Below, piece after piece: positions 2,958-23,527 of a DNA stretch of 41,648 nucleotides. The first letter of the stretch is position 1; each line of letters begins with the position of its first letter. A program made the position numbers and the translations under genes. The DNA is taken from NCBI GenBank assembly GCA_029262065.1, contig JAJDAC010000004.1, forward strand, positions 1-41,648, written 5' to 3'. The stretch comes from Candidatus Krumholzibacteriota bacterium (GTDB lineage Bacteria; Krumholzibacteriota; Krumholzibacteriia; JAJRXK01). Under the pieces are notes generated by a model. That model was not told the origin of the DNA and made no database searches. It saw nothing but the letters and a program-made list of their open reading frames with translations.

Positions 2958-3935
2958 TCAGACCGTTTCTTCGTCGGTGCCCACGGATTCGGCGACCGGC
3001 TCGTCGAGTGAACTGCGCCGCTCTTTCACTACGATGCTGCCCTCATGGGACTTGCCGTAGGCTTTCAGCTCAGCGGCCACATCGCTCACCTTGGCCCAGT
3101 GCCGGAAACCGCCGCCCTGGTGGGTAACGAGGGCAACCGTGAGGCTCGGGAATCCAGCGCGCATGGGATTCCCCTGCCGGTCGTGCACTTCGATGTAACC
3201 GCGCTTTAGATCCTCGGCTTCCATGAGAAAACTGCAGCGCTCCTCGAAGCGATCAACGATTTCTTCCGCGACCGCTTCTCCGGTGTCGAGATTCGTAATG
3301 ACACAGAAGTCATCGCCACCGATGTGTCCGATGAAGTCGTCCTTGGAGCCCACGTCAGCCGTGGCTTCACGGATGATGCTGGCGACGAACTTGATGCTTT
3401 CATCGCCCTTGGTATAGCCGTAGTGGTCGTTGTAGGCCTTGAAGTTGTCGATATCGATATATAGGAACGCGAACGATCGATTGCCCTCGATGCGGTTCTG
3501 CAGCTCGGCTTCGATCGCGCGATTGCCCGGAAGCCCAGTAAGCGGATTGGCCTGGCGCTGAGAACGACTCCAGTCGAGCGTGATGCGTACGCGCGCCAGC
3601 AGTTCCTGGTTGTCGTAGGGCTTGGTCAGGTAGTCGTTGGCCCCGCCCTCGAAACCCTTCACCTTATCGCCGGTTTCACCCTTGGCCGTGACGATGATGA
3701 TGGGGACCTGGCTGGTTCGGTAATCGGCCCGAAGATGATTGCAAACCTCGAACCCATCCATGTGGGGCATCATGAGATCGAGCAAGATGAGATCAGGAAC
3801 GTGCGCACGGGCGTGTTGCAGCGCCTCCTGGCCGTTGGCCGCCGTATACACCTGGTAACCGTTCTGATCCAACAAGAACTGCAAGATCCTGCGGATATGC
3901 GGCTCGTCGTCGACGATGAGAATGCTTTCCTTCAA
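2958..3935 (-). CDS. Response regulator with REC and GGDEF-type (GGDDF) domains
   Basis: A 325-residue protein. The receiver domain (about 1-120) has the acidic pocket VDDE at 8-11, phospho-acceptor Asp53 (LILLDLMMP) and the conserved Lys in YLTKPYD. A GGDEF-family domain fills the rest, opening with NPLTGLPGNRAIE and carrying GGDDF at about 206-210. GGDEF domains make cyclic-di-GMP; the fourth motif position is Asp rather than the usual Glu, and no RxxD inhibitory site precedes the motif, so activity is uncertain. I chose a TTG start at 3935 because GGAG sits 7 bases upstream and homology begins at once. An in-frame ATG at 3989 has no ribosome binding site and lies inside a predicted leader hairpin. 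The fused histidine kinase/HD-GYP gene follows directly and is the likely partner. Confidence 0.85.
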   Translation of the reverse strand: MKESILIVDDEPHIRRILQFLLDQNGYQVYTAANGQEALQHARAHVPDLILLDLMMPHMDGFEVCNHLRADYRTSQVPIIIVTAKGETGDKVKGFEGGANDYLTKPYDNQELLARVRITLDWSRSQRQANPLTGLPGNRAIEAELQNRIEGNRSFAFLYIDIDNFKAYNDHYGYTKGDESIKFVASIIREATADVGSKDDFIGHIGGDDFCVITNLDTGEAVAEEIVDRFEERCSFLMEAEDLKRGYIEVHDRQGNPMRAGFPSLTVALVTHQGGGFRHWAKVSDVAAELKAYGKSHEGSIVVKERRSSLDEPVAESVGTDEETV

Positions 3936-3980
3936 GTCCGTTCTCCGATTCTCCTCGGGCTCGGCAAAATATGCCGACCC

Positions 3981-4000
3981 GACCCCCATCCGGTGGGGTC
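3981..4000 (-). other. Hairpin at the 5' end of the predicted regulator leader
   Basis: GACCCC (3981-3986) and GGGGTC (3995-4000) form a perfect 6-bp stem with an 8-base loop. It sits at the predicted 5' end of the REC-GGDEF transcript and would cover the weak ATG at 3989. There is no T tract, so it is not a terminator. It may stabilise the mRNA, or be chance. Confidence 0.3.
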
Positions 4001-7717: not shown

Positions 7718-7740
7718 CGCAGTCTATTTCGTAGACTGCG
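7718..7740. terminator. Perfect hairpin between and across convergent gene ends
   Basis: CGCAGTCTA and TAGACTGCG form a perfect 9-bp stem with a 5-base loop. It lies just after the CPBP stop (7709) and includes the TAG stop of the opposing zinc-ribbon gene (7724-7726). The position suits a bidirectional terminator, but there is no T tract on either strand, so Rho-independent action is doubtful. Confidence 0.45.
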
Positions 7741-7918
7741 CGATATTCCGCCCAAGACTGATGTCGCCGTTGTCGATGCGGATGTTGAATCCGCAATTGG
7801 GATTGCTGCAGACCCAGGCCTTCCACTGAATCGGCGCCCCGTCGCGACCGTAGTCGGACAACGGCAGCAGCACTCCGGTATGACATTTCAAACAGGAAGG
7901 AAACTGATTCCCGATCAT
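7724..7918 (-). CDS. Small zinc-ribbon protein, function unknown
   Basis: A 64-residue protein beginning MIGNQFPSC. It has two cysteine pairs, CLKC near the N-terminus and CSNPNC about 27 residues later, as expected for a structural zinc ribbon, plus DYG, AWVC and GFNIRIDNGDI. I do not recognise a specific family. The frame also allows an ATG at 7981, but that codon overlaps a strong predicted -10 element (7980-7985), so the inner ATG at 7918 fits better. The gene appears to be a single unit with its own promoter, placed between the end of the envelope cluster and the convergent CPBP gene. A role as a nucleic-acid or protein-binding accessory would be a guess. Confidence 0.65.
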   Translation of the reverse strand: MIGNQFPSCLKCHTGVLLPLSDYGRDGAPIQWKAWVCSNPNCGFNIRIDNGDISLGRNIAQSTK

Positions 7919-8048: not shown

Positions 8049-9326
8049 TCAGGTCTTCTGGGGCTTTTTCTTGGCCGCGGGGAACAGCACATTGTTCAGA
8101 ATCAAGCGATAACCCGGGCTTCCCGGATGCAGATCCAGATCGGTCGGAGGATCTCCCACCTGGTGGGTGTAGTCCTCGGGATCGTGCCCACCGTAGAACG
8201 TGAAGGTGCCACGCCCGATCATGCCGTGCAGATACTTGATTTCGTCGGTCCCCTCGACCTCAGCCAGGACCACCACGTGATCCTTCAGGAGCCTACGTTG
8301 AAAGCCCGTGGTCTGGCCCATGAACCCGTTCACCACGTTGCGATGGCACTGGGTGAGCATGGTGGGTATGGGATCGTGCTTGGCGGCGAAGTCGAACAAT
8401 GTGAAGTAATCGGCCACGGCTCCGCGTAGTCGAGCGTAGTTGCTTACGTCGATGTCGCTGAACTCGTATACGCGATAGTCGGTCACGAGTTCGAAATCGG
8501 TGAACGCCAACGTGTTCTCGTACTTCAGCTTCTCCTGCGCGTTGGGTTCGAGCGGAGTACCGTCGAATACGCGATCGACGAAATCCACACCCAGAGCAGC
8601 CAGGGAAATATCGAACGTGTCGGTAGCCGAGCACATGGCGAACAAGAATCCGCCGTTGGCGACGTACTCCTTGATGGTGAGAGCCACGGCTCCCTTGAGT
8701 TCGCGCACCGTGTCAAAGCCCAGCGAAGAGGCCATGCTTTCCATGAACCGCTCTTGTTCCTGGTACCAGTCTATGTGGCTGAAGTTGGCGTAGAACTTCC
8801 CGTATTGCCCCGTGAAATCCTCGTGATGCAGATGCAACCAATCATACTCGTTCAATCCACCGCTGAGCACTTCACGATCGAAGATCACCTTGAAGTCGAT
8901 CTCCGCGTACGTCAGGGCCAACGTCACCGCGTCATCCCAGGGTTGGAAGTTCGGCGGAGCGTAGATCGCAATACGCGGCGGCACTTCGAGCAGGACTTCG
9001 TCCATGTTTTCCTGATCGACCGTACGCCGGATGGAAGCCACTTCACTCTCATCCACGCGCTTCATCGATACGCCCATGAGACGTGCTTCCAGCTCGACGA
9101 ATGTGGATCTCGGCAGCAGAAAACTGCCGCCGCGGTAGTTCAACAACCACGAAACGGTTACGCCCTTTTTCAGCGCCTTGAATGCCAAACCATATGCCTT
9201 CAGGTGGTTGGCCTGGGTCCCGTCCATGGGAATCAGCAGCTCTTCGGCTTGCGCGGTCGCGGGCAGCTGCACGACCAATGTCAGCAGCACCACCAACGAC
9301 AGGGCCCAACGAACTCGGTGGCTCAC
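8049..9326 (-). CDS. Secreted protein of unknown function (family often mislabelled asparagine synthetase B)
   Basis: A 425-residue protein with a GTG start that overlaps the preceding TPR gene by 4 bp (GTGA). The N-terminus is a classic signal peptide ending TAQA, so the product is exported. It then reads LIPMDGTQANHLKAYGLAF and WLLNYRGGSFLLP. From memory, proteins with this opening are commonly called asparagine synthetase B in FCB-group genomes. I see no N-terminal nucleophile Cys and no ATP-pyrophosphatase SGGxD loop, so that name is not supported. Later parts (EYDWLHLHHEDFTG, GGFLFAMCSATDTFD, FTFYGGHDPEDYTHQVGDPP) resemble a periplasmic GATase-like or ThuA-like fold, loosely similar to the DUF4159 protein upstream. 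It is the last gene of the cluster and probably works with the TPR, DUF4175 and DUF4159 proteins. Confidence 0.8.
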   Translation of the reverse strand: MSHRVRWALSLVVLLTLVVQLPATAQAEELLIPMDGTQANHLKAYGLAFKALKKGVTVSWLLNYRGGSFLLPRSTFVELEARLMGVSMKRVDESEVASIRRTVDQENMDEVLLEVPPRIAIYAPPNFQPWDDAVTLALTYAEIDFKVIFDREVLSGGLNEYDWLHLHHEDFTGQYGKFYANFSHIDWYQEQERFMESMASSLGFDTVRELKGAVALTIKEYVANGGFLFAMCSATDTFDISLAALGVDFVDRVFDGTPLEPNAQEKLKYENTLAFTDFELVTDYRVYEFSDIDVSNYARLRGAVADYFTLFDFAAKHDPIPTMLTQCHRNVVNGFMGQTTGFQRRLLKDHVVVLAEVEGTDEIKYLHGMIGRGTFTFYGGHDPEDYTHQVGDPPTDLDLHPGSPGYRLILNNVLFPAAKKKPQKT

Positions 9327-11275
9327 GGCAACTCTCCCTCTGTCTCGGGTGTGTCGCCACGCAAGAGGCGCACGCGATCGCGAACGGTATCGAGGTACAC
9401 GTAGTCTTCGTGGTCGAGCAGCACCTGCTCGTACACGGTCATGGCTTCGGTCTCGCGACCCGCATCACTCAAAAGGTCGCCCTTCAGGTGCAACGCCGAA
9501 GCAGCGTATCGCGTACCGCGGTCTCCCACGGCGCTGAGCAGGGGGTGGGCATCGGTGACGTTGCCCTCTCGTATATACATACGAGCGAGATCGAGTGCGG
9601 CGCGGTCTCGAAGACCACGTCCCGGGCCGGCCGCCAGCGAACCCAACTCGGTCTGCAACGAGTCGGGCTGCAGGGTGGCACGATAGTAGAGGGCACGACC
9701 GTAGCTGGCCAAGCTACCCACGTCGGGCGCCTGTGACAGATTCTCTTCGGCCAGAAGCAACGCCAGATCGAGTGCGTCGTTGGTGTAGTCCGCGGTGGGA
9801 GCATCGAGCGCTACGGAGGCCAAACGCTCCTGCGCGGTTTGGTAGTGACCGCCCATGAAGTCCAGCATGCCCAGATGATAGTGGGCCCGACCCTGACCCT
9901 CACGGAAGCTCCGATCCTTGCCCATTGCCTTGAACACAGTACGTCCCCGCGCGGTGTCACCGGCCGCGATATAGGCGCGACCCAGACCAACCCGGGCCAG
10001 CTGCACCTGTTCGCGCGAGGCGTTGGGGCTCACGTGAAGACGCTCGTAAAGCTCTAGAGCCTCTTGCGGACGATTCAAGGCGTCTACGTAGACCGAGGCC
10101 AACCGCAACAGTGCGGTGGATGTCACGCGACTATTGGGAAACAGCTCGCCCATCTCCACGATGGCGCGGCGCGCTTCATCCAGCACGGCAAGCTGCTCGT
10201 CCTCGCCCAACGTGGCGAAGTGATCGTTCTCCAGAATGGCCAGCAGCGTGCGGTTGAGTGTGTCGTAGACACGGGGTTGCAGGCTCTCGGGGAGAGCATC
10301 ACCCGATAGCAGACCCTGAAGCATCCGGGCCGAGAGCCGCAACGACAACAGACTGCGACGGGGCGGAGTGCCAGGCAATCGGCTGTCGGCCAGCCCGGCC
10401 ATGGCCATCTGGATGATTTCCTGCAGAAACTCGGGATCATCGAGCAGCGGCTCGAGTACCGCCCACGCCGAGTCAGCATCGCCCGCGCGGTGTCGCAGCT
10501 CGGCCAGAACCAAACCAACCTGAGGCACCTGCGGGTGCGCGGCGTAGATTTCTTCGGCCACGGCGCGCACGGCCGTGAGGTCCTCGTCGGTCTCCACCAG
10601 CTCCATGATCTGTGCTCGCATGAGGCCAACGTTCAACGGACTGTCGAGAATCACGGTCAGGTACTCGCGCGATGCCTTTTCGGCCAACCCCAGCTCGCTG
10701 TAGAGCGTTCCCAGGTGCTGCGCGAATTCGTTGGGGTCGGTCACCTTCGTGCGGCCATCTTCCAACACGGCCACCGCGTCCTCGAAATGATCATGGTGGC
10801 GCAAGACGTTGGCCACGAGTCGGATCATCGATGGGTCCCCAGGCTCCTGGGCCAGCATGCGCTGGAGAATCTCGGTCGCCTCGGCCTTCTTGCCCAAAGA
10901 CAGCTTGGCCTCGGCCAGCATCTTGTGGTCAGCGGTGCCCAGATCGGGATCCTCCGCAGCGATCCGGTCTCCCACCAATGTTTCGACGTCTTCGTTGCGA
11001 TCGAGATCTTCGTACAGCCGCGCCAGTCGGCGGTAGAGGGAGTGTTCCAACGGCTGACGCTTCGCCCGGTCCTCGAGCAACGCGACGGCCTCGTCCTGGG
11101 AACCACGACGCAGCAACATCTCCACCCGACGACGGACCAGCTCTTCCGATTCGAGCGCGGCGCCTTCATCGGGCTGCGGCAACTCGAACACCTGCGCCGG
11201 CGCGATCGCACCGAGCGGCGCGACAACCAGGAACAGTGCAATAGCCATCAGCCTACTCGGGCGCGGAGCGATCAT
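9323..11275 (-). CDS. Secreted tetratricopeptide-repeat protein
   Basis: A 650-residue protein. The ATG at 11275 overlaps the stop of the DUF4175-like gene by 4 bp (ATGA), and a signal peptide follows at once (MIAPRPSRLMAIALFLVVAP, cleavage near APAQ). This is the reason to reject an upstream in-frame start at 11371. The rest is almost all helical repeats with TPR spacing, such as ALLEDRAKRQPLEHSLYRRLARLYEDL, LGTLYSELGLAEKASREYL and LHLKGDLLSDAGRETEAMTVYEQVLLDH. No catalytic domain is visible. It is probably a periplasmic or membrane-associated scaffold for the DUF4175/DUF4159 proteins encoded upstream; TPR partners are usual in such clusters. The exact role is unknown. Confidence 0.85.
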   Translation of the reverse strand: MIAPRPSRLMAIALFLVVAPLGAIAPAQVFELPQPDEGAALESEELVRRRVEMLLRRGSQDEAVALLEDRAKRQPLEHSLYRRLARLYEDLDRNEDVETLVGDRIAAEDPDLGTADHKMLAEAKLSLGKKAEATEILQRMLAQEPGDPSMIRLVANVLRHHDHFEDAVAVLEDGRTKVTDPNEFAQHLGTLYSELGLAEKASREYLTVILDSPLNVGLMRAQIMELVETDEDLTAVRAVAEEIYAAHPQVPQVGLVLAELRHRAGDADSAWAVLEPLLDDPEFLQEIIQMAMAGLADSRLPGTPPRRSLLSLRLSARMLQGLLSGDALPESLQPRVYDTLNRTLLAILENDHFATLGEDEQLAVLDEARRAIVEMGELFPNSRVTSTALLRLASVYVDALNRPQEALELYERLHVSPNASREQVQLARVGLGRAYIAAGDTARGRTVFKAMGKDRSFREGQGRAHYHLGMLDFMGGHYQTAQERLASVALDAPTADYTNDALDLALLLAEENLSQAPDVGSLASYGRALYYRATLQPDSLQTELGSLAAGPGRGLRDRAALDLARMYIREGNVTDAHPLLSAVGDRGTRYAASALHLKGDLLSDAGRETEAMTVYEQVLLDHEDYVYLDTVRDRVRLLRGDTPETEGELP

Positions 11276-14200
11276 TTGTCGCCCCCCGCGTCGAGCTTGC
11301 CTTGAATTTGACGGAAGTAGCGGCGCACGTCGTCCTGATAGTCGTGAGGCGCTTTTTCGGGCGCCAACCAACGACGCAACTGTTGTTCGTTGTCGGCGCT
11401 ACCGCGCGCGAGCGGCGACCCGGCTTGCGGCGCGAACAGCTCCTGGCCTTCGCGCGACTCGCGTCGTTTGGCGAAATCGCGCTCTCGAATCGAGCGCTGG
11501 GCATCGAGCAAGCGGGAAAGGATCTTCTCCTGCTGACGCCGCGTCGAATCGCTCAACGTGCCGCTGTCGAAGTCCTGCACGACTTCTTCGATTTCCTCGC
11601 CCAATTTGTCCAGGTCGCCCAGAATGCGACGCTCATCGTCCACCTGATCACGAAGTTCCTTGAGCTGCTGGGCGATCGACTGCTGGCGGGCGCGGAGTTT
11701 GGCCAACTCTTGGCGTTCCTGCTCGCTGAAACCGCCCTGCATGCGTTCGCGAAGCTGATCGGTCATGGAGTTCAGGCGCGACTGCTCCTGCGACATCTGC
11801 TCCATCTGTTGCGACATGGACATCTGCTCGCCGCCGCCGCCGCCTTGACCACCGGAGTTCTTGGCCGCGGTAAGCAGATTCATGACGATCTGGTTCATGC
11901 TGCCCATGGTGGTGGTGGCGGTATCCCGCGAACGACGCGAACGAGCCATGTTCAACTCATTCACACTACGGTCGAGGATCTGCGTGAGCTCTTTGAGTTG
12001 CTCGAGCAACTGTTCGCTGATCATGAAATTCTTGCGCGAGAGCTCCTCGAGATCGGCGTAGATCCGATTGGTACTGCGTTGAATGCGACCCTGCTCGCGG
12101 GTGATGGGACGAAGCTGCTGACCCTGCACGGTCTCGCGCAATGCCTCCACGATCTTCTCTTCGCTGAAGCTCAGGTTCAGCATGTCGTAGGCCAGGGCCT
12201 GAAGCTTCTCGGTGGCGTACTGCTGCGTGGCCATCTGCATACCCTGCTGACCCTCGGCCAACACCTCGTAGAGATGCACCAGGTTCTCGCGCGCCTGATC
12301 CTGCTGCTCCGCGCCTTCCTGTGGATCGCCCGCGGCCAGGCTCTCAGCCGCCTTCTGCATGGGATCGGAGGGATTGTCCTGGCTGTTCAGCGCCTGCATC
12401 GCCTGCTCGAGGGCCTGCTTCATTTCCTGCATGCCCGGGTCCATCTGCCCGTTGTTGGCTTCCTTCTGCTCTTCGATGCGATCGAGAGCCTCCTGCACGC
12501 GCTCGCGAAGCTCCTCGGCCTCTTCGGCCAACTGTTGTTGCGCTTCGGCCAACTCTTCCAGGGTCTTCGGCTTCTCGGAAGATTGCTCGGGAGATGCGGA
12601 CTCGGAGGACTCTGAAGACTGGGATTCCGACGACTCAGACGACTCGCTCTCGGAACCTTCGCTTTCGGATGATTCGCTCTCGGAGCCTTCGCTTTCGGAT
12701 GATTCGCTCTCAGAGCCTTCGCTCTCGGACGACTCGCTCTCAGAGCCTTCACTCTCGGAGCCCTCGCTCTCAGAGTCCTCGCTCTCGGAGCCTTCACTCT
12801 CGGAGCCCTCGCTCTCAGAGTCCTCGGTCTCGGAGCCTTCACTCTCGGACGACTCGCTCTCGCTACCGTCGGTTTCCTCGCCAGACTCGCCGCTTTCTTC
12901 TCCCGCGGCGTCTTCCGACGATTCCGACTCGTCGCCTTCTCCCGACGCATCGCCCGACTCGTCGTTCTCAGCAGTGTCGTTCTGCGCCAGTTGATCCAGT
13001 TGTTCCTGCGACTCCTCATCCAATTCCGAGACCTGGTCCTGCAGGTCTTCCTGACGCGACAGGTAGTCGGCTACCTCTTCGATCAGATCGCTCATCAAAC
13101 GGTCGCGCTCCAACTGCTGCAACAACTCGATCGTGCGATCGAGACGACGGTTGTACTCTTCCTGATTCGCCAACGCCTCTTCCATGGCGCGCTGGATCTC
13201 GTGCGGCTGCAGTTGGTCCATCGCGTCCTGCATGGCCTCCATGTAGTCGCGCAACCCCTGGTCGTCCAACGAGTCCATCAACTCCTGAATGACCTCCATC
13301 TTCTCCATGATCTCCATGCTGCCCGCATTGTTGCGCTGGAAATCCTCCAGCTGCTGCTGGAGTTTGGAGTTGGAGTCTTCCAGGCGATCGTGCAGTTCCT
13401 TCTGCTGCTCCAACGCCTCGCGAATCTCTTCCTGCTTGGCAAAGTCGGGCGAAGGATTCTTCTTCAACTCGCGATCAAGCCGTTCCAGATTCTCTTCCAG
13501 CTCCTCGCCTTCGGACAGAAGGTCGGTGAGCGACTCGGCCTGCTCATCGCGAACATCGCGCTCGATGTCGAATACTTCGGAAATGGTGGGTAGCCGCAAT
13601 CGGTACACGGCGCTACGCGCACTCTGACCGCCAACCAGGGCATTGTTGTCAGTGGCTTCGAGGCAGTACACCACGGTATCGCCCGGAAACAGCTCCAGCT
13701 CGTTCAAGTCCCATAGGAAGACCACACCCACTTCCTGTGAGCCTTCCTCGACGATCAACTCGGCCACCTGCGGCGACGAAGGGGCCTCTTGGCCTGGCGT
13801 GTACAAACGCGTGCGCGTCCACTCGGTTTCGTCGGCGGAACGATGCAACAGGTCCAGGCTGGCCAGACCCACATCGTCGGCGGCCAAACCAGCCACCGGG
13901 ATCGTGAGGTCACGGTCGAGCGTGCGGTCATCGCCAGGCTCGGTGATCTGCACGGTCGGCGGATCGTCGGATTGCACGGCGAAGCGGTAGACGGTCACCG
14001 CATCGCTCTCGAGTCCCTCGGAATCGGTCAGGCCGATGCGGAAACTCATATCACTGGTGACGGCGAACTCATCGGAGAATACATCGTCGTCGATCGGCAG
14101 CGACCGTGGTTCCTGTCCGTCGTCCAGGCGCCGGGCGGAAGCAAGCGGAGCACTCGACTGGCCCACCATGTGAACCATCGTGCCTTCGAGCACCGCGATC

Positions 14201-15189
14201 GTGCCACCCAGGTCTTCACGCTCGGTGGCTTCACGGCCGGTGTAGGCGGGCGGCTCGAGCCGGGCGGCGAGCGACTTGATGACGGGACGCTCGCGCACGC
14301 TCAGCTGATAGACGGGGGTGAGCAGTTCACCCTTGCGAAAACGGTAGCGGAAAGGATCTTCCACTTCGACCAGTCGGCCCGTTACGTCCACGTATGGAGC
14401 CGGATCGAGCGTGGCCTCTTCGCGCACGGTGGGGACTTCCTGCCAGAAGTCGCCGGTGCGGTTCACCAACAGGTAGACGTCTTCATCGCCGCCCAGGAAA
14501 TCACGCGCCTGCAGACGCACTTCGCCGCCCACCGCCACGCGCATGTCTTCGGTCAGCGAGAACAAACCACTGGTAGGTGTGATGCGAGCCAGATAGTTGG
14601 GATGCGCCAGCGCGGTAAAGGTCTGCTGCACGCGTTCGGGGGCGCCCCATCCCAACACCATCCAGACCACGAGCGCCAATGCCGCCAGGCCCGCGTGGAT
14701 GTGCGCGCCCACCAGGGGCACGCGCGGAGACAGTGCGGTCTTCTCGGCTTCGTCACTGGCGCGGCGCAGGATCTCGGCCACGAGTTCAGGCGAGGCTCCG
14801 TGCACCAGGGGATCACGGCGCTTGGGCGACGTGAACTGGGTGGCCGCCTCCAGCATGTTGTTGTAGTCGCCGTGCTCTTCGAGCTGACGGCTGAAACCCT
14901 TGAGGTTGGCAATGCGCCGCAGCGGGCGCATCAGCTCGAAGAAAAAGATCCAGGCCGCACTACCCACCAGCACCATCTGTACGACTCGGGCGCCCCAGGG
15001 GCCCCAGGCGGCCCAACCATTGAGCGTGATGACCGCGGCCGCGAGAAGTAGGCCCGCGCTGCCCAGAAACATGAGGGCGGCGTGCCCGGCCAGTCGCAAC
15101 CGTAGCCAGCGCAGCTCGTGGCGCAGGCGCTCTTTCAGACGAACAGCGTCGGAACTGTGCGCGGTGGAGGAAGTTGTGGAAACGGACAC
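11272..15189 (-). CDS. DUF4175-like giant membrane/coiled-coil protein with Ser-Glu repeat tract
   Basis: A 1305-residue protein. Two membrane helices lie at about 36-88 and a third at about 165-185, followed by a beta-rich extracytoplasmic region (about 190-560) with several PPTVQITEP-like strands. A long Glu/Gln-rich coiled coil follows (560-735), then a Ser/Glu/Gly/Asp tract (about 735-870), a second coiled coil (870-1080), a Gly-rich patch (QGGGGG) and a Met/Gln-rich segment (MSMSQQMEQMSQ). Three N-terminal helices, a long coiled coil and low complexity match the DUF4175 group, best known from Alphaproteobacteria, though these are longer here. The family has no proven function. It is coupled to the TPR gene by a 4-bp overlap and follows DUF4159 by 23 bp. 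The tract is encoded by DNA tandem repeats. Confidence 0.8.
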   Translation of the reverse strand: MSVSTTSSTAHSSDAVRLKERLRHELRWLRLRLAGHAALMFLGSAGLLLAAAVITLNGWAAWGPWGARVVQMVLVGSAAWIFFFELMRPLRRIANLKGFSRQLEEHGDYNNMLEAATQFTSPKRRDPLVHGASPELVAEILRRASDEAEKTALSPRVPLVGAHIHAGLAALALVVWMVLGWGAPERVQQTFTALAHPNYLARITPTSGLFSLTEDMRVAVGGEVRLQARDFLGGDEDVYLLVNRTGDFWQEVPTVREEATLDPAPYVDVTGRLVEVEDPFRYRFRKGELLTPVYQLSVRERPVIKSLAARLEPPAYTGREATEREDLGGTIAVLEGTMVHMVGQSSAPLASARRLDDGQEPRSLPIDDDVFSDEFAVTSDMSFRIGLTDSEGLESDAVTVYRFAVQSDDPPTVQITEPGDDRTLDRDLTIPVAGLAADDVGLASLDLLHRSADETEWTRTRLYTPGQEAPSSPQVAELIVEEGSQEVGVVFLWDLNELELFPGDTVVYCLEATDNNALVGGQSARSAVYRLRLPTISEVFDIERDVRDEQAESLTDLLSEGEELEENLERLDRELKKNPSPDFAKQEEIREALEQQKELHDRLEDSNSKLQQQLEDFQRNNAGSMEIMEKMEVIQELMDSLDDQGLRDYMEAMQDAMDQLQPHEIQRAMEEALANQEEYNRRLDRTIELLQQLERDRLMSDLIEEVADYLSRQEDLQDQVSELDEESQEQLDQLAQNDTAENDESGDASGEGDESESSEDAAGEESGESGEETDGSESESSESEGSETEDSESEGSESEGSESEDSESEGSESEGSESESSESEGSESESSESEGSESESSESEGSESESSESSESQSSESSESASPEQSSEKPKTLEELAEAQQQLAEEAEELRERVQEALDRIEEQKEANNGQMDPGMQEMKQALEQAMQALNSQDNPSDPMQKAAESLAAGDPQEGAEQQDQARENLVHLYEVLAEGQQGMQMATQQYATEKLQALAYDMLNLSFSEEKIVEALRETVQGQQLRPITREQGRIQRSTNRIYADLEELSRKNFMISEQLLEQLKELTQILDRSVNELNMARSRRSRDTATTTMGSMNQIVMNLLTAAKNSGGQGGGGGEQMSMSQQMEQMSQEQSRLNSMTDQLRERMQGGFSEQERQELAKLRARQQSIAQQLKELRDQVDDERRILGDLDKLGEEIEEVVQDFDSGTLSDSTRRQQEKILSRLLDAQRSIRERDFAKRRESREGQELFAPQAGSPLARGSADNEQQLRRWLAPEKAPHDYQDDVRRYFRQIQGKLDAGGDK
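12631..12855. repeat. Tandem DNA repeats coding the Ser-Glu tract
   Basis: Two adjacent 30-bp units (12661-12690 and 12691-12720) are nearly identical, and flanking half-units extend them. Next come two 45-bp units (12751-12795 and 12796-12840) that differ at one base. All lengths are multiples of three, so copy-number change keeps the frame. They encode SES/SEG/SED triplets of the DUF4175-like protein. Confidence 0.85.
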
Positions 15190-15212
15190 GGTGACTCCTC
15201 CGTGGGTGACAA

Positions 15213-15902
15213 TCAGGGCTGGGTGAGCGCGTACATGCAGACGTTCACAGCCATCTGGATGGCGGCTTCTCGTCCCTCGGGGGTGTCGCCGTGAACGGCG
15301 GGGTCTTCCAGACCGTCGCCGATATCGCTACTCCAACTATAGAAGACGGCCAATCGGCCGTTGTCAAAAATTCCAAAACCTTGCGCTGGCTCACCATCGT
15401 GCTCGTGGATCTTGGGCAGCCCCGGCAGGTCGTAGAAGGCGTGGAATATGGGGTGGCCGCTGCCCACGGGCTCCAGTTCGTGCTCGGGATAGAGTTCGCC
15501 CACCAGCTGCCGGAAGCTCTCATCCAGGCCGTAGTTGTCGTCAACCCAGAGAAACCCACCCGCGTCGAGGTACCGACGCAAGCGTTCGAGGTCGCCGGAC
15601 GACGGCCGCATGGTCCCGTGACCGGTGGCGTACAGCATGGGATATCGGTAGAGGCGCTCGTCATCGAGCGTCACGTTGGCTTCGCGGTCGCTGCACGGCA
15701 CGCCGGTACGCCGCTCGAATTCGGTGAGCAGATTGGGCAGGCTGCTGGGGTTGGCGTACCAATCGCCGCCGCCCGCGTACTGCAGGCGCCCTACGCGAAA
15801 CTGCCCGAGGTCCTCGGGGGCCTGCTCGACGCCCTGCGCCCGGACTGCGGTGCCGAAGCTCAGCAGCGAGGCCAGAGCGGACAAGAGGAGGAATATGCGC
15901 AC
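15213..15902 (-). CDS. Secreted DUF4159 domain protein
   Basis: A 229-residue protein. The GTG start at 15902 has GGAGGAG 7 bases upstream and gives a good signal peptide (VRIFLLLSALASLLSF...VRAQG); a longer in-frame extension to 16259 would overlap the kinase gene and lacks such features. The mature part is a full DUF4159 domain: FRVGRLQYAGGGDWYANPSSLPNL, YPMLYATGHG, LDAGGFLWVDDNYG, GHPIFHAFYDLPGLPKIHEHDG and a C-terminal WSSDIGDGLEDP. The fold is thought to be class-I GATase-like, but no function is established. DUF4159 genes often sit with MoxR, DUF58 and DUF4175-type genes; only DUF4175 and TPR partners are present here. It leads a four-gene run with the DUF4175-like, TPR and unknown secreted proteins. 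Confidence 0.9.
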   Translation of the reverse strand: MRIFLLLSALASLLSFGTAVRAQGVEQAPEDLGQFRVGRLQYAGGGDWYANPSSLPNLLTEFERRTGVPCSDREANVTLDDERLYRYPMLYATGHGTMRPSSGDLERLRRYLDAGGFLWVDDNYGLDESFRQLVGELYPEHELEPVGSGHPIFHAFYDLPGLPKIHEHDGEPAQGFGIFDNGRLAVFYSWSSDIGDGLEDPAVHGDTPEGREAAIQMAVNVCMYALTQP

Positions 15903-15930
15903 GAGAGCTCTCCTCCGCGGTGGGAAAAGG

Positions 15931-15958
15931 ATTGTATTTGTACGGGAACTATCAGGAA
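15931..15958 (-). promoter_or_regulatory. Possible promoter for the DUF4159-DUF4175-TPR run
   Basis: TACAAT (15936-15931, five of six matches to the -10 consensus) lies about 30 bases before the GTG start of the DUF4159 gene. The -35 position, 16 bases upstream, holds only a poor TTCCTG. It would let the four downstream genes be transcribed apart from the kinase gene. Confidence 0.3.
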
Positions 15959-15975
15959 TCGTTCCGGAAAAGCGC

Positions 15976-18900
15976 TCAGGCCTCGCTAAGCCCCACAATG
16001 GCGACGGCCCCCTGGCCTTCGGTGCGGTTCTCGAGGCGAATGCTTCCCCCCATCTTCTCCATGAGATTGCGGCAGATGACCAGCCCCAATCCAGTACCCG
16101 TGCTCTTGGTAGAAAAATACGGCTCAAAGAGCCGATCTTCCACTTCCGCGGGAATTCCGGGTCCCTCATCTTCCACCCGGACCTCGATCTGGTCGCCAAT
16201 TCTGGCGGCTGAGAGCACAACGTGGCCCTGGCCGCCCATGGCCTGGAGGGCGTTTTCAACCAGGTTTGTAAGCACTTTGACTATCCCCCCGGACGACACG
16301 TGGACGGTGTGGTCGCCGTCCTGGCGGGTTTCGACCAGTATCGAGCCATCGGCCGACGGGTACTGGGCCCGTATGTCCTCGAGGATGGAACTCAACGACA
16401 TGGTGGTCAGATCGGGCAGATCACTGCGGCCCAGCAGGCTGAACTCCGAGGCGATGTTGCGCAGCCGGGCCACCTGGCGTTCGATCTGCGAGACGTTCTC
16501 GTCGACGATCTCCTGCATGCGGGGGTGGTCATCGACGCAGGCCTGCCGGACCATCTGCGCCGCCAACTGGATGGGCGTGAGCGGATTCTTCACCTCGTGC
16601 GCGACCTGGCGGGCCATCTCGGCGTACAGGGCCAGGCGCCGACTGGCCAGTAGCTCGGTGACATCGTCGAACAACACCAGCCAACCACTCTGGCCGTCTT
16701 CCAACGCGATGGGATCGATGACCACGCGTAGGGTGCGCGGTCCATCACCGGCCGGCAGTTTGATTTCGGTGGCGACCAACCGGTCGGGCCGGGCGAGGTT
16801 TTCGATGCGCGTCAGCATTTCGTCCATGCGGCCTTCGAGCAGACGTTTGGCGGCGGCGTTGGCTTCCTGCACCGCACCCGACTCCACGATTACCAGAACG
16901 CCGGCGCTCAGACTTCCCAGAATGGCTTCGAGAAAGCCGCGACGCGCGGCCAGCTTGGCCTGACTTCCACGCAGGTCATCGGTCATCTTGTTGAACGAGC
17001 GCACGAGCTGCCCGATTTCGTCTTCGCCATGCGCCGGCAGCCGCACGTCCAGATCACCGGCGCCAACCCGCTGCGTCGCGTGCACCAAGGTCCGGATGGG
17101 GTCGACGATGCGTGCGGCCACCAACAGACCCACCCCCACCGCCAGCATGAAGGCAAGCGACGACAACCCAAAAAGAAACAACTGCGCGCGCCGCTGCTCG
17201 CGCGCGGCCTCGGTGGCGCGGGCAAACAACCGCGCCGACAACACCCCGCGGCGCGCATCCAAGGCGCCCGGCACCACCGCGAACCCCTTGGCTACATTCA
17301 GGCCCCGACCCTGATCGGACTCCACGTACAGGCGGCTGCCTCCCTCGCGCACGACGCGCTGGGCGCGCGCCGGCAACACTGGACTCACGAGTCCTGACTT
17401 CAGCAGATAGTCCTGGCTGCTCACGACCGCCCACGGTCCATCGTAGAGCGTGAGATCGGTGCCCACCGTCCGCGCAATACGACCGAGGTCCTTGTCGGTC
17501 AGTTGTCGTCGCACGAAAACGTAGGCGGGTTGCCCGGCCGGGGACGTGACCGGATAGACGCGGCCCATGAACCATTCACGACCGTTGGACTCCATGATCA
17601 ACTCGCCGTCCACGACCGAGTCGAGCATGTCACGCGCTTCCTGCGGCGACAGGTTGCGCAGACTCTCGTCCAGCAACAGGTCGCCGCTCTCGGCGAAGAT
17701 CATGACCTGACTTTCCTCGAACGGTCCCAGGTCGCGCCGAGCGGTGGTGTTCCCCGAGGCAAGCACCTCTTGCACGTACTCGCCCGAAATCAGCGCCGCG
17801 GCCATGTCATCGAGACTGGATGCCAACAGGTTCAGGGCGGTGTCCAGTCGTTGACGTACCTCGTCCAGATTCTCGCGCTTCAGGCGTTCCTGCGCACGGT
17901 GATCATGAAAGACTCCAGAGATGAGCAACGGCAACAACACCACCAAGCCGATGGCGGCCAGAAGCCGTTCCTGGAATCCGAACTCGCCAAGAAAACGTGG
18001 CCAGAGATACTTGGGACGATCGCGCACCGCGCGCAATGGTAGTGCTAGAAGGACCACCAATAGCCCGCTGGCCACGTACAGCGCGGTCAGGCGGCTGGCG
18101 TCGAGCACACGATCAGCCATGGTGGGTTCGGCGAAGGCGACCACCACACCGGATCCGGCGTTGTCGGTCTGCCACGATACCCGGTAGCGGCGATCCCCCA
18201 ATGAAATGGAACGCCACTGCTCGGGCGGCGGCAACTGATCACGACCCAGCTGCAACAACACCGGGTCGTCCGCCGCCACCACGAACTCTTCCCCCAGTTG
18301 TCCCAGCATCACGGGCTCGTCGAACTCGCGCCTTGGCGATAGCGGAGACGTGACGGCAAAGCCCAATGCGGCCGGGCCCGCCGTAACCAGGTCCATGGAG
18401 GGAGCCGGACCACGCGAGGGAAAAGGAAGGTCCACCAGCACCGCGGCCGCATCGCCGCCGGGCACGAGCAGGAGCAGATTCAACACTCCACGGTAGACCA
18501 ACACCGGGCCATGCTCGGTGGCCAACTCCACCGGCACCACCATCACTTCCTGGGTCGACCGGGCGTTGGCCCGCCACCAGGCCAACAACGGACGCGGTTC
18601 GTACCCCAGGCCCAGCTCGAACTCGCTGAGCACGCGGCCGTCGCCACCCAACAATTGCACCCGCGATCCATCACCCAGCGCGCTCAGGCTGCTTCCGGCC
18701 CATATTTCGAAGGCGGCGTTGCTTCGATCCAACACCGGGTTGGCCAACTGCTCCACCGTGGACTGATCTTTCGCAACCTCGCCCAGGACTTCTTCGAGCA
18801 GAAATCGGCGCCAGTTCACTTCACGCGCCAGTTGTTCATTGGCGTCGTCGAGCGCCACGCGCTGACGCACTCCGGCGTACACCTGCTCGAGTCCCGCGCT

Positions 18901-20562
18901 CTGCAATCCGGCCAGCCAAAGAATCACCACGAGCCCCGCCACCACGCGACGCGCGAACGAGGGGTCGCGCACGGCTGGCACCAAGGCCCAGGCCAACATC
19001 GGTTGCGCGGCACCCCAGGCCGCGGCGCCGGCCGTGAGGCCACGTTGCATGCCCCACCACCACAAGCCAAATGAAACGACCGTGACCGCCAGCGCTCCCG
19101 CACGTCCCATCCCCCGCAGCCAGTATTCCCAGCCCAGCAGTACCCAGCACACCGGGGCCAGCATGGCCAACAACATGGCCAGGTGCAGACAGAGAAACGG
19201 CACAGTGAAGAAAGGGGCCTCCAGACCAACCAACTTCGGGTTGGCATTCTCCACGGCGATTTCCTGCAGCGTGGTGTAGCAGACGGCCGAAAAAGCCGTG
19301 CCCGCCACCAACACCACCAACACCAACCATCGCGAACGCCGGTGTCCGGCCGCCTGCACCCAGGCGGGAAGCAACAACACCGCCACCGCGAACGCGGCGG
19401 CGGCCGTCAGCAGAAAGTCCAGGACGCTGCGCAGCAGGCCAAAGCCACGGGTAGTGGCAAAGTACGCGGGCTCCACCAGCAACTGGAGGTTGCCGGTGAG
19501 GTTTCCGAAGGCCAGATCCAACACACCAGCTCGATCCAGGACAAATCGGAAGCCCAACACCAAGAGCACGGCCCAGACCGCGGCCAGCCTCCGTGCGACC
19601 TTGGCCCCGGGCGCGGGCCACCGTCGCCAGGCCAGCACGCAGCCTCCGAGCAACGACAACAAGAGCGAAACGGCGACGGCTCGCGCATGTTCGACGATGG
19701 CCGCACGACGCTGATCGCGGGGCGCGGGCGCGTTGAGCGCCAACCACACCCAAGGCTCGTCCTCGGGTACCGCCACCAACCGATCGAACTCCGCATCGCG
19801 CAACGAGCCGCGCGGCGGTTCCGTCATGAGTTGCACGTCGACGCCGGTCAGGCGCGAGAGCGGTGCACCAGGTGCCTCGCCCACGCCCATGCGGGGAAAC
19901 AGTGCCCGCGTGATGCCCAGGCTCACGTCGACCGTGGCCACCCGATTGGGTTGCGAATCGTCGGCCGGATCACTTTCCACGGACACGGTCATGTAGCGAC
20001 GAAATCCATGGTCGACGATGAGGGGAAACGGTCGGAGCGGCGGACGATCGGGTCCGGGGACTTCGCCCGCCCAGGCGAGCAGTTGTCCCCCCTCCCAAAC
20101 CGCCACGCCCACGGAAAGGTCACTGTTGGACAACCGAACGGGTGAGGCCAGATCGTCCAGGTTCACCGCGCGGCCCAGGGCCGCTTCGGCCCGTGCGTAG
20201 GCCTCACCTTCCAGCGCGATCAGTGCGGCCAGGGCCTGACGTTCGCTGCGATCCAGATGCTGCTGGGTGGACTGTTGCCAACGCGGATCGCCTTCGGGCG
20301 GTAGCCAGGCCAGACGCACGGCCGAGCTCACGGCCAGGCCAAGCATGGCTACCTGTAGCAGTCGAAGGAGGTTGCGTGAGCGCGGAGAAGTTGACCAGCG
20401 TACAACCATGGACGCGGCCGCCACGGTCAGCGCCAACGCGGCCACGGCGGCCAACCAACCGGCGGGCTCAGCCACCAGCAGGGAAAGCGCGGCCAGCGCG
20501 AGCACGGTAGGAACACCGAAACTCAACGATGAAGAGAGGATGGAACGAAGACGGTGGGTCAT
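15976..20562 (-). CDS. Very large NtrY-like sensor histidine kinase
   Basis: A 1528-residue protein, about twice the usual NtrY length. Two helices at the N-terminus (about 12-55) are followed by an extracytoplasmic domain, then a block of about eight membrane helices (about 295-550), a second extracytoplasmic region, and further helices near 835 and 875. A double-sensor-like domain ends in a helix at about 1125-1145. Then come HAMP (IVDPIRTLVHATQRVGAGDLDVR, near 1150), a degenerate PAS (about 1200-1290), HisKA with phospho-acceptor His near 1322 (VAHEVKNPLTP) and HATPase (NLVENALQAM, DEGPGIP, STKSTGTGLGLVICR). No response regulator lies beside it. It is 73 bp upstream of the DUF4159 gene and likely senses envelope state for that cluster, which is an inference. 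Confidence 0.88.
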   Translation of the reverse strand: MTHRLRSILSSSLSFGVPTVLALAALSLLVAEPAGWLAAVAALALTVAAASMVVRWSTSPRSRNLLRLLQVAMLGLAVSSAVRLAWLPPEGDPRWQQSTQQHLDRSERQALAALIALEGEAYARAEAALGRAVNLDDLASPVRLSNSDLSVGVAVWEGGQLLAWAGEVPGPDRPPLRPFPLIVDHGFRRYMTVSVESDPADDSQPNRVATVDVSLGITRALFPRMGVGEAPGAPLSRLTGVDVQLMTEPPRGSLRDAEFDRLVAVPEDEPWVWLALNAPAPRDQRRAAIVEHARAVAVSLLLSLLGGCVLAWRRWPAPGAKVARRLAAVWAVLLVLGFRFVLDRAGVLDLAFGNLTGNLQLLVEPAYFATTRGFGLLRSVLDFLLTAAAAFAVAVLLLPAWVQAAGHRRSRWLVLVVLVAGTAFSAVCYTTLQEIAVENANPKLVGLEAPFFTVPFLCLHLAMLLAMLAPVCWVLLGWEYWLRGMGRAGALAVTVVSFGLWWWGMQRGLTAGAAAWGAAQPMLAWALVPAVRDPSFARRVVAGLVVILWLAGLQSAGLEQVYAGVRQRVALDDANEQLAREVNWRRFLLEEVLGEVAKDQSTVEQLANPVLDRSNAAFEIWAGSSLSALGDGSRVQLLGGDGRVLSEFELGLGYEPRPLLAWWRANARSTQEVMVVPVELATEHGPVLVYRGVLNLLLLVPGGDAAAVLVDLPFPSRGPAPSMDLVTAGPAALGFAVTSPLSPRREFDEPVMLGQLGEEFVVAADDPVLLQLGRDQLPPPEQWRSISLGDRRYRVSWQTDNAGSGVVVAFAEPTMADRVLDASRLTALYVASGLLVVLLALPLRAVRDRPKYLWPRFLGEFGFQERLLAAIGLVVLLPLLISGVFHDHRAQERLKRENLDEVRQRLDTALNLLASSLDDMAAALISGEYVQEVLASGNTTARRDLGPFEESQVMIFAESGDLLLDESLRNLSPQEARDMLDSVVDGELIMESNGREWFMGRVYPVTSPAGQPAYVFVRRQLTDKDLGRIARTVGTDLTLYDGPWAVVSSQDYLLKSGLVSPVLPARAQRVVREGGSRLYVESDQGRGLNVAKGFAVVPGALDARRGVLSARLFARATEAAREQRRAQLFLFGLSSLAFMLAVGVGLLVAARIVDPIRTLVHATQRVGAGDLDVRLPAHGEDEIGQLVRSFNKMTDDLRGSQAKLAARRGFLEAILGSLSAGVLVIVESGAVQEANAAAKRLLEGRMDEMLTRIENLARPDRLVATEIKLPAGDGPRTLRVVIDPIALEDGQSGWLVLFDDVTELLASRRLALYAEMARQVAHEVKNPLTPIQLAAQMVRQACVDDHPRMQEIVDENVSQIERQVARLRNIASEFSLLGRSDLPDLTTMSLSSILEDIRAQYPSADGSILVETRQDGDHTVHVSSGGIVKVLTNLVENALQAMGGQGHVVLSAARIGDQIEVRVEDEGPGIPAEVEDRLFEPYFSTKSTGTGLGLVICRNLMEKMGGSIRLENRTEGQGAVAIVGLSEA

Positions 20563-20654: not shown

Positions 20655-20688
20655 AACGAAAACGGCGGCCCCGAATGGAGCCGCCGTT
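20655..20688 (-). terminator. Intrinsic terminator after secF
   Basis: On the minus strand, AACGGCGGC and GCCGCCGTT make a perfect 9-bp stem with a 10-base loop, followed by TTTCGTTTC. It lies 36 bp after the secF stop and closes the secD-secF unit. Confidence 0.75.
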
Positions 20689-20724: not shown

Positions 20725-21666
20725 CTAGGCCGCGACTTTGGGCTTCGCGGTTGTCGTGGTTCGCTTGCGATCCGACGAGCGCCAGTGGTACCAGGCAATC
20801 AGCACCGGGCTGGCCACGAAGATGGACGAATACGTACCCACCAGCACACCCACCACCAGCGCGAACGCGAAGTCGTGGATGACCGGGCCACCGGTCGAAA
20901 AGAGAATGGCGGCTACGAACAGGGTGGTCAGCGATGTGATGAGCGTGCGGCTGAGCGTCTCGTTGATGCTCTTGTTGATGACCGCTTCGTACGACTCCTT
21001 GCGTCGCAGGCCCATGTTCTCGCGTATCCGATCGAACACCACGATGGTGTCGTTCAGCGAGTAACCGATGATGGTAAGGAACGCGGCCAGTACCGTGAGG
21101 CTGATCTCCTTGTTCATCAACGAGAAGATGCCAATGGTAATGAGCACGTCGTGCGCCAGCGCCACGACCGCCGCCACGCCGAACTGGAACACGAATCGAA
21201 ACGTGATGTAGACGATGATGAGAACCAGGGCCAGGAATATGGCATTGAGCGCCGCCGAGCGGAGTTCGCCGCCGATCTTGGGTCCCACTCCCTCCTGCCG
21301 TCGCAACTCGATGGTCCGATCGGGGAAGGCCGCCGCCAATTCCGTGCGTACACGGCTGGCGTCACTTTCCACACCTTGCTCCGGCGATGCGGGAACGTAG
21401 ACCAAAAGCTCGCCCGGCTCGCCAAACTCCTGCAGACCCTGCACGTCGATCCCCGCTTTGGTCAGGGCATTGCGAGCCTCGCCCACGCCAATGGCAGGTT
21501 CGGTGTGGATCTCGGCCAGCGCACCACCACGGAAGTCGATGGACAGGTTGGGGCCACCGCGCACCACCAGGCTACCAATGCCGGCCAGGATGATGAGGGC
21601 TGACAACACCGCGGCAGCCTTGCGCTTGCCTACGAAGTCTAAGTTGGTGTTCGTGAGAAATTGCAT
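20725..21666 (-). CDS. secF: Protein translocase subunit SecF
   Basis: A 313-residue inner-membrane protein of normal length. The N-terminal helix precedes LSIDFRGGALAEI (the SecF/SecD periplasmic head motif), and five further helices follow at about 135-290. The family motif GYSLNDTIVVFDRIRENM and the downstream NETLSRTLITSLTTL are intact. SecF forms a complex with SecD and uses the proton gradient to pull exported proteins through SecYEG. The gene follows secD after 46 bp and has AAGGA about 11 bases before its ATG. A good terminator lies after the stop. The Lys/Arg/Thr-rich tail (SDRKRTTTTAKPKVAA) is cytoplasmic. Confidence 0.97.
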   Translation of the reverse strand: MQFLTNTNLDFVGKRKAAAVLSALIILAGIGSLVVRGGPNLSIDFRGGALAEIHTEPAIGVGEARNALTKAGIDVQGLQEFGEPGELLVYVPASPEQGVESDASRVRTELAAAFPDRTIELRRQEGVGPKIGGELRSAALNAIFLALVLIIVYITFRFVFQFGVAAVVALAHDVLITIGIFSLMNKEISLTVLAAFLTIIGYSLNDTIVVFDRIRENMGLRRKESYEAVINKSINETLSRTLITSLTTLFVAAILFSTGGPVIHDFAFALVVGVLVGTYSSIFVASPVLIAWYHWRSSDRKRTTTTAKPKVAA

Positions 21667-21712: not shown

Positions 21713-23410
21713 TTAGATGCTCAGGCTCTTGGGGGCGCGGTTGCCCAGCCAGGCCTCGTAGACCGACCGGGTGAACACGAGCGCCGCGAACATGCTCGTG
21801 AGGATTCCCACACTCAGCGTCACCGCGAAGCCCTTGATGGGGCCGGTGCCGAAGTAGAACAGCACGATGGCCGCGATGAAGGTGGTGATATTGGCGTCGA
21901 CGATGGCCCGCGTGGCCTGCGAGAAGCCCGCGTCGATCGACGCTCGCACCGATTTGCCGGCGCGCATCTCCTCGCGTATTCGCTCGAAGATCAGCACGTT
22001 CGCGTCCACGGCCATACCCACTGTGAGTATGATGCCGGCGATACCGGGAAGCGTGAGCGTAAGCCCGAAGCGCGCCAGGATGCCCATGAGCATGATCAAC
22101 GTGATCATCAGGCCGAAAGTGGCCAGCAGGCCCGCCACCTTGTAGTAGATGATCATGAACACGATCACTACGGCACCACCAATGAGTACCGACTGCACGC
22201 CCTTGTCGATGGAGTCCTGACCCAGGCTGGCACTGATCGTGCGCTCTTCCTCGATACGGATACCAACCGGGAGCGCACCGGTGCGCAGAAGCAGCGCAAG
22301 GTTGCGGGCTTCCATGTCGTCTTCGAAACCGCCGGAAATGCTCGCGCGGCCGCCGGGAATCCGGCCCAGGATGTTGGGGGCCGACTTCACCTGCTTATCC
22401 AGAACAATACCCAGCTTGCGGCCCACGTTGGCGCCGGTAACATTGGCGAACTTCACGCCGCCCTTGCGCGTGAGATTCAGGCTCACCATGAGTGCGGGCG
22501 CCCGCTGCGGGTCGGCGGTGACCACGGCGCTGGAGATCTCGTCGCCGCGCACGCGGATCTGCGTTTCCACCAGGTACAGAATGCGGGCCGGCTTACCGTC
22601 CTGGCCGGTCAACGTTTCGGTTCCCCAGAGCAGTTCGGCGTCGTTGGGAATCACGCGTTGGGCGGGGGTGGATTCCAGCATTTCCTTCAACTGGGCCACG
22701 TTGGCCTCGGACACCGGAATGCCGCCGACGGGCTCGTAGTAGGAGCCGGTAAGCGAGCTGAAGGGGCGCGCGTTGTCGACGGGATCGGCCGGGTCGTCGG
22801 TTCCCGAGGCCAGGAGATCGTCGATATCCGAACCCGTGGAGTCGGTGCTGGCCACCTCGGTGTCTTCTGCGTCTTCGCCACCGGCGGCGCGCTCGTCTTC
22901 CAGGCTTGCGTCGCCGCTATCGTTGGCCGCCTCGGAAGTCAGCTTGCCGCTGAGAGCCTGATCGAGCCGCGCGATGAGCGGCGTGACCTGGTCTTCTCCC
23001 TGCACCATGCGGAACTCGAGACGCGCGGTGGTGCCGATGAGCTTGCGCGCCTGATCGATGTCACTCACACCAGGCAGCTGCACGACGATGCGGTTTCCCT
23101 CGCGCTGGATGACCGGTTCGGTCAGACCCATTGTGTCGATGCGCATGCGAAGGATCTCAATGGTGCGCTCCATGGCGTCATCGAGGCTTTCATCGCCCAG
23201 CTCTTCTTCTTTCAACTCGATGGCCATGTAGATGCCACCCTTGAGGTCGAGCCCCAGGGAGATGGCGTCCTGTTCGACCTTGGCCCGATCATCGGCCGAG
23301 ATGTCGTCGGGAAGGCCCTGGGCCATGCGTAGCGTGGGGTACAGGCTCCAGAGCGACCACAGCACGACCACGGCCACGAGCAGGAATTTGATCTGAAGGG
23401 AACGGTTCAT
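21713..23410 (-). CDS. secD: Protein translocase subunit SecD with acidic periplasmic insert
   Basis: A 565-residue protein that pairs with SecF. The N-terminal helix (FLLVAVVVLWSLWSLYP) is followed by LGLDLKGGIYMAIEL, the conserved head motif of the first periplasmic domain. The C-terminal membrane part has LPGIAGIILTVGMAVDANVLIFERIREEMRAG, the hallmark proton-path region. About residues 152-215 form an Asp/Glu/Ser/Ala/Gly-rich stretch (for example GGEDAEDTEVASTDS) with no helix-forming hydrophobics, which looks like a flexible insert in the periplasmic P1 domain. I start at the ATG at 23410, directly before the membrane anchor, although no Shine-Dalgarno is evident. An in-frame extension to 23527 would begin inside the promoter. 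Confidence 0.96.
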   Translation of the reverse strand: MNRSLQIKFLLVAVVVLWSLWSLYPTLRMAQGLPDDISADDRAKVEQDAISLGLDLKGGIYMAIELKEEELGDESLDDAMERTIEILRMRIDTMGLTEPVIQREGNRIVVQLPGVSDIDQARKLIGTTARLEFRMVQGEDQVTPLIARLDQALSGKLTSEAANDSGDASLEDERAAGGEDAEDTEVASTDSTGSDIDDLLASGTDDPADPVDNARPFSSLTGSYYEPVGGIPVSEANVAQLKEMLESTPAQRVIPNDAELLWGTETLTGQDGKPARILYLVETQIRVRGDEISSAVVTADPQRAPALMVSLNLTRKGGVKFANVTGANVGRKLGIVLDKQVKSAPNILGRIPGGRASISGGFEDDMEARNLALLLRTGALPVGIRIEEERTISASLGQDSIDKGVQSVLIGGAVVIVFMIIYYKVAGLLATFGLMITLIMLMGILARFGLTLTLPGIAGIILTVGMAVDANVLIFERIREEMRAGKSVRASIDAGFSQATRAIVDANITTFIAAIVLFYFGTGPIKGFAVTLSVGILTSMFAALVFTRSVYEAWLGNRAPKSLSI

Positions 23411-23439
23411 TGAAGTTGGCGTCCGGTTGTGAAGAAGGC

Positions 23440-23467
23440 AAAAAAACCGCCCGAGCGGGCTCGAGCG
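23440..23467 (-). terminator. Terminator-type hairpin inside the secDF leader
   Basis: On the minus strand CGCTCGAG, a CCCG loop and CTCGGGCG form an 8-bp stem (one G-U pair), followed by G and seven Ts (23446-23440). It has all the marks of an intrinsic terminator. It lies downstream of the predicted secD promoter (23500-23527) and 30 bp before the secD ATG, so it is either the terminator of the deacetylase gene with partial read-through or an attenuator for secDF. Confidence 0.7.
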
Positions 23468-23499
23468 TAGACGGATGCGAATTGTCGGAAAACCCGCCA

Positions 23500-23527
23500 A
23501 GTATACTCTGATAGAGAGCTGTGTCAA
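23500..23527 (-). promoter_or_regulatory. Strong sigma70-type promoter upstream of secD
   Basis: A perfect TTGACA (23527-23522) is followed after 16 bases by TATACT (23505-23500, five of six matches). This is the best-matching promoter in the window. Transcription should start near 23494, about 85 nt before the secD ATG at 23410, and would run through the terminator-like hairpin at 23440-23467. Confidence 0.7.

Follow-up and report, generated by a model that had tools for sequence, protein, structure and literature searches.

Whether a large sensor kinase and the four genes downstream of it form a kinase-controlled envelope cluster, and whether the lack of adjacent MoxR and DUF58 genes sets that cluster apart, is the question raised by the window, the 41,648-base stretch of DNA analysed here, which is the entire contig C4 of a 5.8-Mb genome from the class Krumholzibacteriia (Krumholzibacteriota). 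A sequence-only reading had proposed both. Pfam searches and reading of the open reading frames bore out the presence of all five genes, encoding the kinase, the DUF4159, DUF4175 and TPR proteins and a protein here called UNK425, at 8049-20562 on the minus strand (Table 1).

Layout of the cluster

From upstream to downstream on the minus strand, the gene order is polysaccharide deacetylase, SecD, SecF, kinase, DUF4159, DUF4175, TPR, UNK425, YjeF, TsaD and a receiver-GGDEF protein. The start codons of the DUF4159 and TPR genes were corrected (Table 1) before the intergenic gaps were calculated. The kinase and DUF4159 genes are separated by 73 bp, and the downstream genes are as tightly spaced as had been described, with 23 bp between DUF4159 and DUF4175 followed by 4-bp overlaps at DUF4175/TPR and TPR/UNK425. 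A minus-strand terminator scan found no terminator-like hairpin in the gaps between the five genes; the one intergenic minus-strand site of this kind in the cluster follows SecF and precedes the kinase gene, which suggests that the kinase may head its own transcript. Downstream of UNK425, a small zinc-ribbon-like ORF is probably the next transcription unit; the promoter-like site ahead of it is a consensus match only, and UNK425 is followed by the same small protein in locus L069. Rfam, tRNA and PHROGs searches gave no matches.

Table 1 Position and supporting evidence of the cluster genes and flanking features in the window
Feature	Coordinates	Strand	Evidence
Zinc-ribbon-like ORF, 64 aa, downstream of UNK425	7724..7918	-	Promoter-like site 8009-7980
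UNK425, secreted, 425 aa	8049..9326	-	No Pfam family; predicted GATase1-like fold; invariant Cys232
Secreted TPR protein, 650 aa, ATG start at 11275	9323..11275	-	Pfam TPR families
DUF4175 inner-membrane protein, 1305 aa	11272..15189	-	PF13779 E=1e-14; TM prediction
Secreted DUF4159 protein, 229 aa, GTG start at 15902	15213..15902	-	PF13709 E=2e-58; AGGAG upstream of start
Sensor histidine kinase, 1528 aa	15976..20562	-	Pfam HAMP, HisKA, HATPase_c; hydropathy; AlphaFold2; PDB fold matches
Intrinsic-terminator-like hairpin, SecF/kinase gap	20661..20688	-	12-bp stem, 4-nt loop, T-rich tail
SecF, upstream neighbour	20725..21666	-	PF02355 E=7e-65
SecD, upstream neighbour, true start probably within ORF	21713..23527	-	PF22599, PF21760, PF02355

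Predicted products of the five genes

Hydropathy and an AlphaFold2 model (mean pLDDT 77) divide the kinase into TM segments, a first extracytoplasmic region (residues ~86-280), a multi-TM block (~281-578), a second extracytoplasmic region (~579-815), two TM segments, a dCache-like third region (~886-1130) with PDB fold matches to the dCache receptors McpB, PctC and Mlp24, and a further TM segment followed by HAMP, HisKA and HATPase_c domains. With the phospho-accepting His in HisKA (H-box AHEVKNPLTP) and no receiver domain, it has the make-up of an orthodox sensor histidine kinase. The operon itself lacks a response regulator gene, and the receiver-GGDEF protein (2958-3989) has another kinase beside it. 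That second kinase (3-2920) carries HisKA, GAF and HD domains, and a similar pair is found in L062.

Kinases of 1217-1281 aa with the same TM and sensor topology occur in Bacteroidota, Balneolota and Chlorobi and match the window kinase over nearly their full length (hhalign probability 100%, 1126 columns). They keep the same order of regions, although they are ~250-300 residues shorter and are not located beside DUF4159. These homologues led to rejection of the idea that the kinase is unique to Krumholzibacteriia, and by sequence the window kinase qualifies as a member of a wider FCB multi-sensor kinase family. Both in Chlorobi (L156) and in some Krumholzibacteriota, the kinase gene comes after a DUF4783-like gene. 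In some families a small secreted protein is encoded between SecF and the kinase (L048:15405-15899, with similar ORFs in L044, L053 and L055); the L048 protein matches DUF4783 with E=0.0003, just short of the curated cut-off.

The DUF4175 protein has about three N-terminal TM segments, a DUF4175 region at residues 306-549 and a coiled-coil-like C-terminal part, as well as a long acidic Ser/Glu/Gly low-complexity tract (residues ~785-870). Signal peptides are predicted for the DUF4159 protein, the TPR protein and UNK425, and these, together with the TM segments, strongly indicate that the cluster products are located in the envelope.

UNK425 has no match in Pfam, NCBIfam or, by sequence, the PDB. 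The top PDB matches of its AlphaFold2 model (pLDDT 82) are STM3548 (E=4.7e-6) and GH42 enzymes, with modest TM-scores of 0.33 by query and 0.53 by target, and its identity to the matched structures is 10-14%. STM3548 (PDB 2gk3), the GH42 enzymes and 4d1y are GATase1-like proteins, and UNK425 is accordingly predicted to adopt a GATase1-like fold. All 38 aligned sequences, which come from many phyla, have Cys232, located between strand 227-231 and helix 234-243, which in the predicted fold would be the place of a nucleophile elbow. UNK425 shares this Cys position and the predicted fold with the GATase1-like proteins, from which it differs in being secreted and in having no Pfam family. Invariant His, Glu and Asp residues accompany Cys232 in the alignment of the 38 sequences, and some of them may form a catalytic Cys-His-Glu triad with it. 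The conserved C-terminus of UNK425 is basic (AAKKKPQKT in the window), its last K and T being invariant in the 38 sequences; it is disordered in the AlphaFold2 model, and such conservation is unusual for a disordered tail. DUF4159 has an invariant Asp-Asp near a motif comparable to that of Cys232, with no Cys there. DUF4159 and UNK425 were set aside as detectable sequence relatives, since their profile match is short and weak (16 columns, probability 24%).

Distribution of the gene set, the kinase and MoxR-DUF58 clusters

Of 20 class relatives whose loci were read closely, 13 have all five genes with order and strand unchanged; contig ends cut several of the remaining seven. Among 80 genomes of the phylum, DUF4159 is present in 72 and UNK425 in 74, and most of the 80 give a single long match to the profile of the kinase sensor regions. 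In 59 of the 64 phylum genomes with both genes on one contig, the kinase directly precedes DUF4159 in the same orientation, a count that omits split cases, many genomes being draft, and that comes from related genomes of shared ancestry rather than from independent events. In 42 of 45 genomes, UNK425 is encoded 3-9 kb downstream on that strand. The kinase-DUF4159 gap is -4 to 21 bp in seven relatives (L044, L045, L048, L049, L051, L055 and L059), with 4-bp overlaps in L055 and L059. Within the class, the kinase is therefore a fixed partner, and the link withstands the comparison that the sequence-only reading had named as able to refute it, a kinase located elsewhere in relatives. The five exceptions to adjacency comprise three genomes with the two genes 3-6 kb apart (G012, G019, G027) and two with them far apart (G015, G022); parts of the gene set are dispersed in G015, G022 and G026. 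In G012, ~4 kb encoding a transglutaminase-like protein and a CstA-like transporter (identified by eye) separates the kinase from DUF4159 (L050:10764-14405).

A UNK425 profile scan of GTDB representative contigs gave at least 593 matches, the best 80 of which are from Krumholzibacteriota, Cloacimonadota, Latescibacterota, Neomarinimicrobiota, KSB1, Eisenbacteria, Kapabacteria, Ignavibacteria, Bacteroidota, Zixibacteria and others. Identity to the UNK425 of the window is 52-72% for 37 diverse homologues, and all 25 cross-phylum genomes tested, which were chosen for carrying UNK425, also encode DUF4159. Neomarinimicrobiota, KSB1, Eisenbacteria and others have DUF4159-DUF4175-TPR-UNK425 in this order but no kinase with it, and in several FCB phyla the set usually has neither kinase nor MoxR alongside. 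TPR-UNK425 is found with the other two genes not nearby in Ignavibacteria, Chlorobi and Balneolota, and the DUF4159-DUF4175 pair in Kapabacteria and Chlorobi. In L069, DUF4159 directly follows SecD-SecF with no kinase between, and the genome has HAMP-level kinase matches only. In a plasmid search UNK425 had no match, and DUF4159 matched nothing beyond a lone gene on a Corynebacterium plasmid and a Gemmatirosa replicon that lacks annotation. The Corynebacterium gene (L154; NZ_CP015623.1, 129740-130357) is 43% identical and is located amid resistance genes and IS elements.

The four genes are thus a real gene set, worth study, and not a chance neighbourhood. Their recurrence without the kinase outside the class marks the kinase as accessory, either gained in the Krumholzibacteriota lineage or lost elsewhere, and together with the dispersed genomes indicates that co-location is not obligatory. 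Of the proposed kinase-headed envelope cluster, the linkage in the class and the envelope location stand, whereas the kinase itself proves dispensable in Neomarinimicrobiota and other phyla.

The kinase could instead be an independent envelope sensor that came to sit next to a conserved but unrelated group of genes and stays there by inheritance, with conserved synteny and no functional coupling. The kinase-free gene sets of many phyla, the Bacteroidota kinase homologues unlinked to DUF4159 and the conserved order of the entire 30-kb neighbourhood all fit this explanation, which we consider unlikely because the linkage has been kept despite sensor regions only 21-26% identical between families, because kinase and DUF4159 overlap in two loci, and because a second association occurs in Prolixibacter, where ~2 kb separates the kinase from a full-length TPR homologue (302 bits) and a DUF4783-like gene with a weak match.

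MoxR and DUF58 are absent from the window, as had been noted, and both occur twice elsewhere in the genome, in a Bat-type operon on contig C46 and a MoxR-DUF58-BatA/VWA cluster on C41, ruling out their loss from the genome. Their absence failed as a special trait of the cluster: nearly all FCB loci read of the DUF4159-DUF4175-TPR-UNK425 lineage have no adjacent MoxR, and Krumholzibacteriota usually keep MoxR-DUF58-VWA at a distance upstream. In G001 and G002 the window end runs into C41, which places MoxR-DUF58-BatA/VWA ~31 kb upstream on the same strand; across 16 Krumholzibacteriota genomes, the closest DUF58 gene is likewise upstream on that strand, at a distance of 29-106 kb and never nearer. 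This linkage is not kept in G008, G015 and G022, each assembled as a single contig. The intervening block encodes Mfd, SurA-like PPIases, FtsE-FtsX-M23, HolB, TatD, KsgA and SecDF and is generally conserved, so plain synteny may explain the linkage.

This arrangement bears on a further explanation, in which a MoxR-dependent, Cmd-like complex has been split in two, the ATPase half still acting from 30-100 kb away and the kinase being an ordinary regulator. Besides the 16 genomes, Eisenbacteria G087 and the genome G091 share the upstream arrangement at 32-38 kb, in Latescibacterota L070 MoxR-DUF58 comes shortly after UNK425, and Pedobacter (L173) has a classic cluster with DUF4159 divergent to MoxR-DUF58-BatA-DUF4175. 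Against this, Pedobacter, Fulvivirgaceae and KSB1 carry a MoxR-linked DUF4159 plus a separate stand-alone DUF4159 in one genome, which suggests two lineages of these families and perhaps paralogous systems, and on cluster profiles window-type DUF4159 and DUF4175 far outscore their MoxR-linked counterparts; a split complex appears improbable. Chance neighbourhood is ruled out by the five-gene order in 13/20 relatives and the 59/64 kinase linkage, a recurrence in order and strand far beyond chance expectation.

Possible role in the envelope

The closest described systems resemble the cluster in part. The cmdC and cmdD genes of Rhizobium leguminosarum, we assume, correspond to the DUF4159 and DUF4175 families. 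The window cluster shares these two families, present together, and the envelope setting with cmdA-cmdD and other MoxR/DUF58 clusters, and differs from them in having no adjacent MoxR or DUF58 and in having UNK425, a TPR protein and the kinase. Mutants of cmdA-D (RL3499-RL3502) have envelope and morphology defects, according to a published account (PMC5700661). AdvA, a DUF4175 protein of Acinetobacter baumannii that acts in cell division (PMC7481262), is likewise a membrane protein, although it differs in architecture, its DUF4175 domain and TM helices all being within the first 200 or so residues. The Bat (Bacteroides aerotolerance) operon shows a theme of MoxR, DUF58, VWA and TPR; the cluster has no MoxR, DUF58, BatA/BatB VWA or BatD gene, and a true Bat-type operon is located elsewhere (C46, L060). 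The Riemerella Bat operon is regulated by the two-component system PhoPR (PMC11834572), an example of genes of this kind under a kinase. A literature search, with most subscription papers outside its reach, found none naming DUF4159 and one naming DUF4175.

The best reading of the cluster is a putative periplasmic envelope-maintenance module, kin to MoxR/DUF58/DUF4159 clusters and placed in this class under a multi-sensor kinase. The DUF4175 protein would anchor in the inner membrane and extend into the periplasm, where it would probably be joined by the exported DUF4159, TPR and UNK425 proteins; in such an assembly DUF4159 would be the scaffold, and UNK425 an enzyme-like component acting on some envelope substrate. 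The kinase gene precedes the other four, and through an unlinked response regulator its product could adjust how much of the module is made, or how active it is, in response to a signal from the envelope; the MoxR-DUF58-BatA/VWA cluster ~31 kb upstream may supply the AAA+ remodelling partner found next to these families elsewhere. Complex formation, the enzymatic role of UNK425, the direction of signalling and the MoxR partnership are steps that we infer. Stated more specifically, the cluster would be the version found in Krumholzibacteriota of an envelope gene set that is ancient in the FCB group, fronted by a three-sensor kinase and with a distant MoxR partner, a tentative proposal that falls a little short of probable. 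A bolder and doubtful version would make DUF4159-DUF4175-TPR-UNK425 an undescribed, widespread FCB envelope machine, with UNK425 as its enzyme (secreted and cysteine-hydrolase-like), under dedicated three-sensor kinase control in Krumholzibacteriota and with kinase homologues controlling dispersed parts in Bacteroidota.

Being secreted and so conserved across phyla, UNK425 likely does something basic to the envelope; it occurs in many FCB phyla, cultivated Pedobacter and Prolixibacter included, yet has no Pfam family. By bringing the parts together and suggesting a candidate regulator, the Krumholzibacteriota operon makes the question testable in cultivable Bacteroidota.
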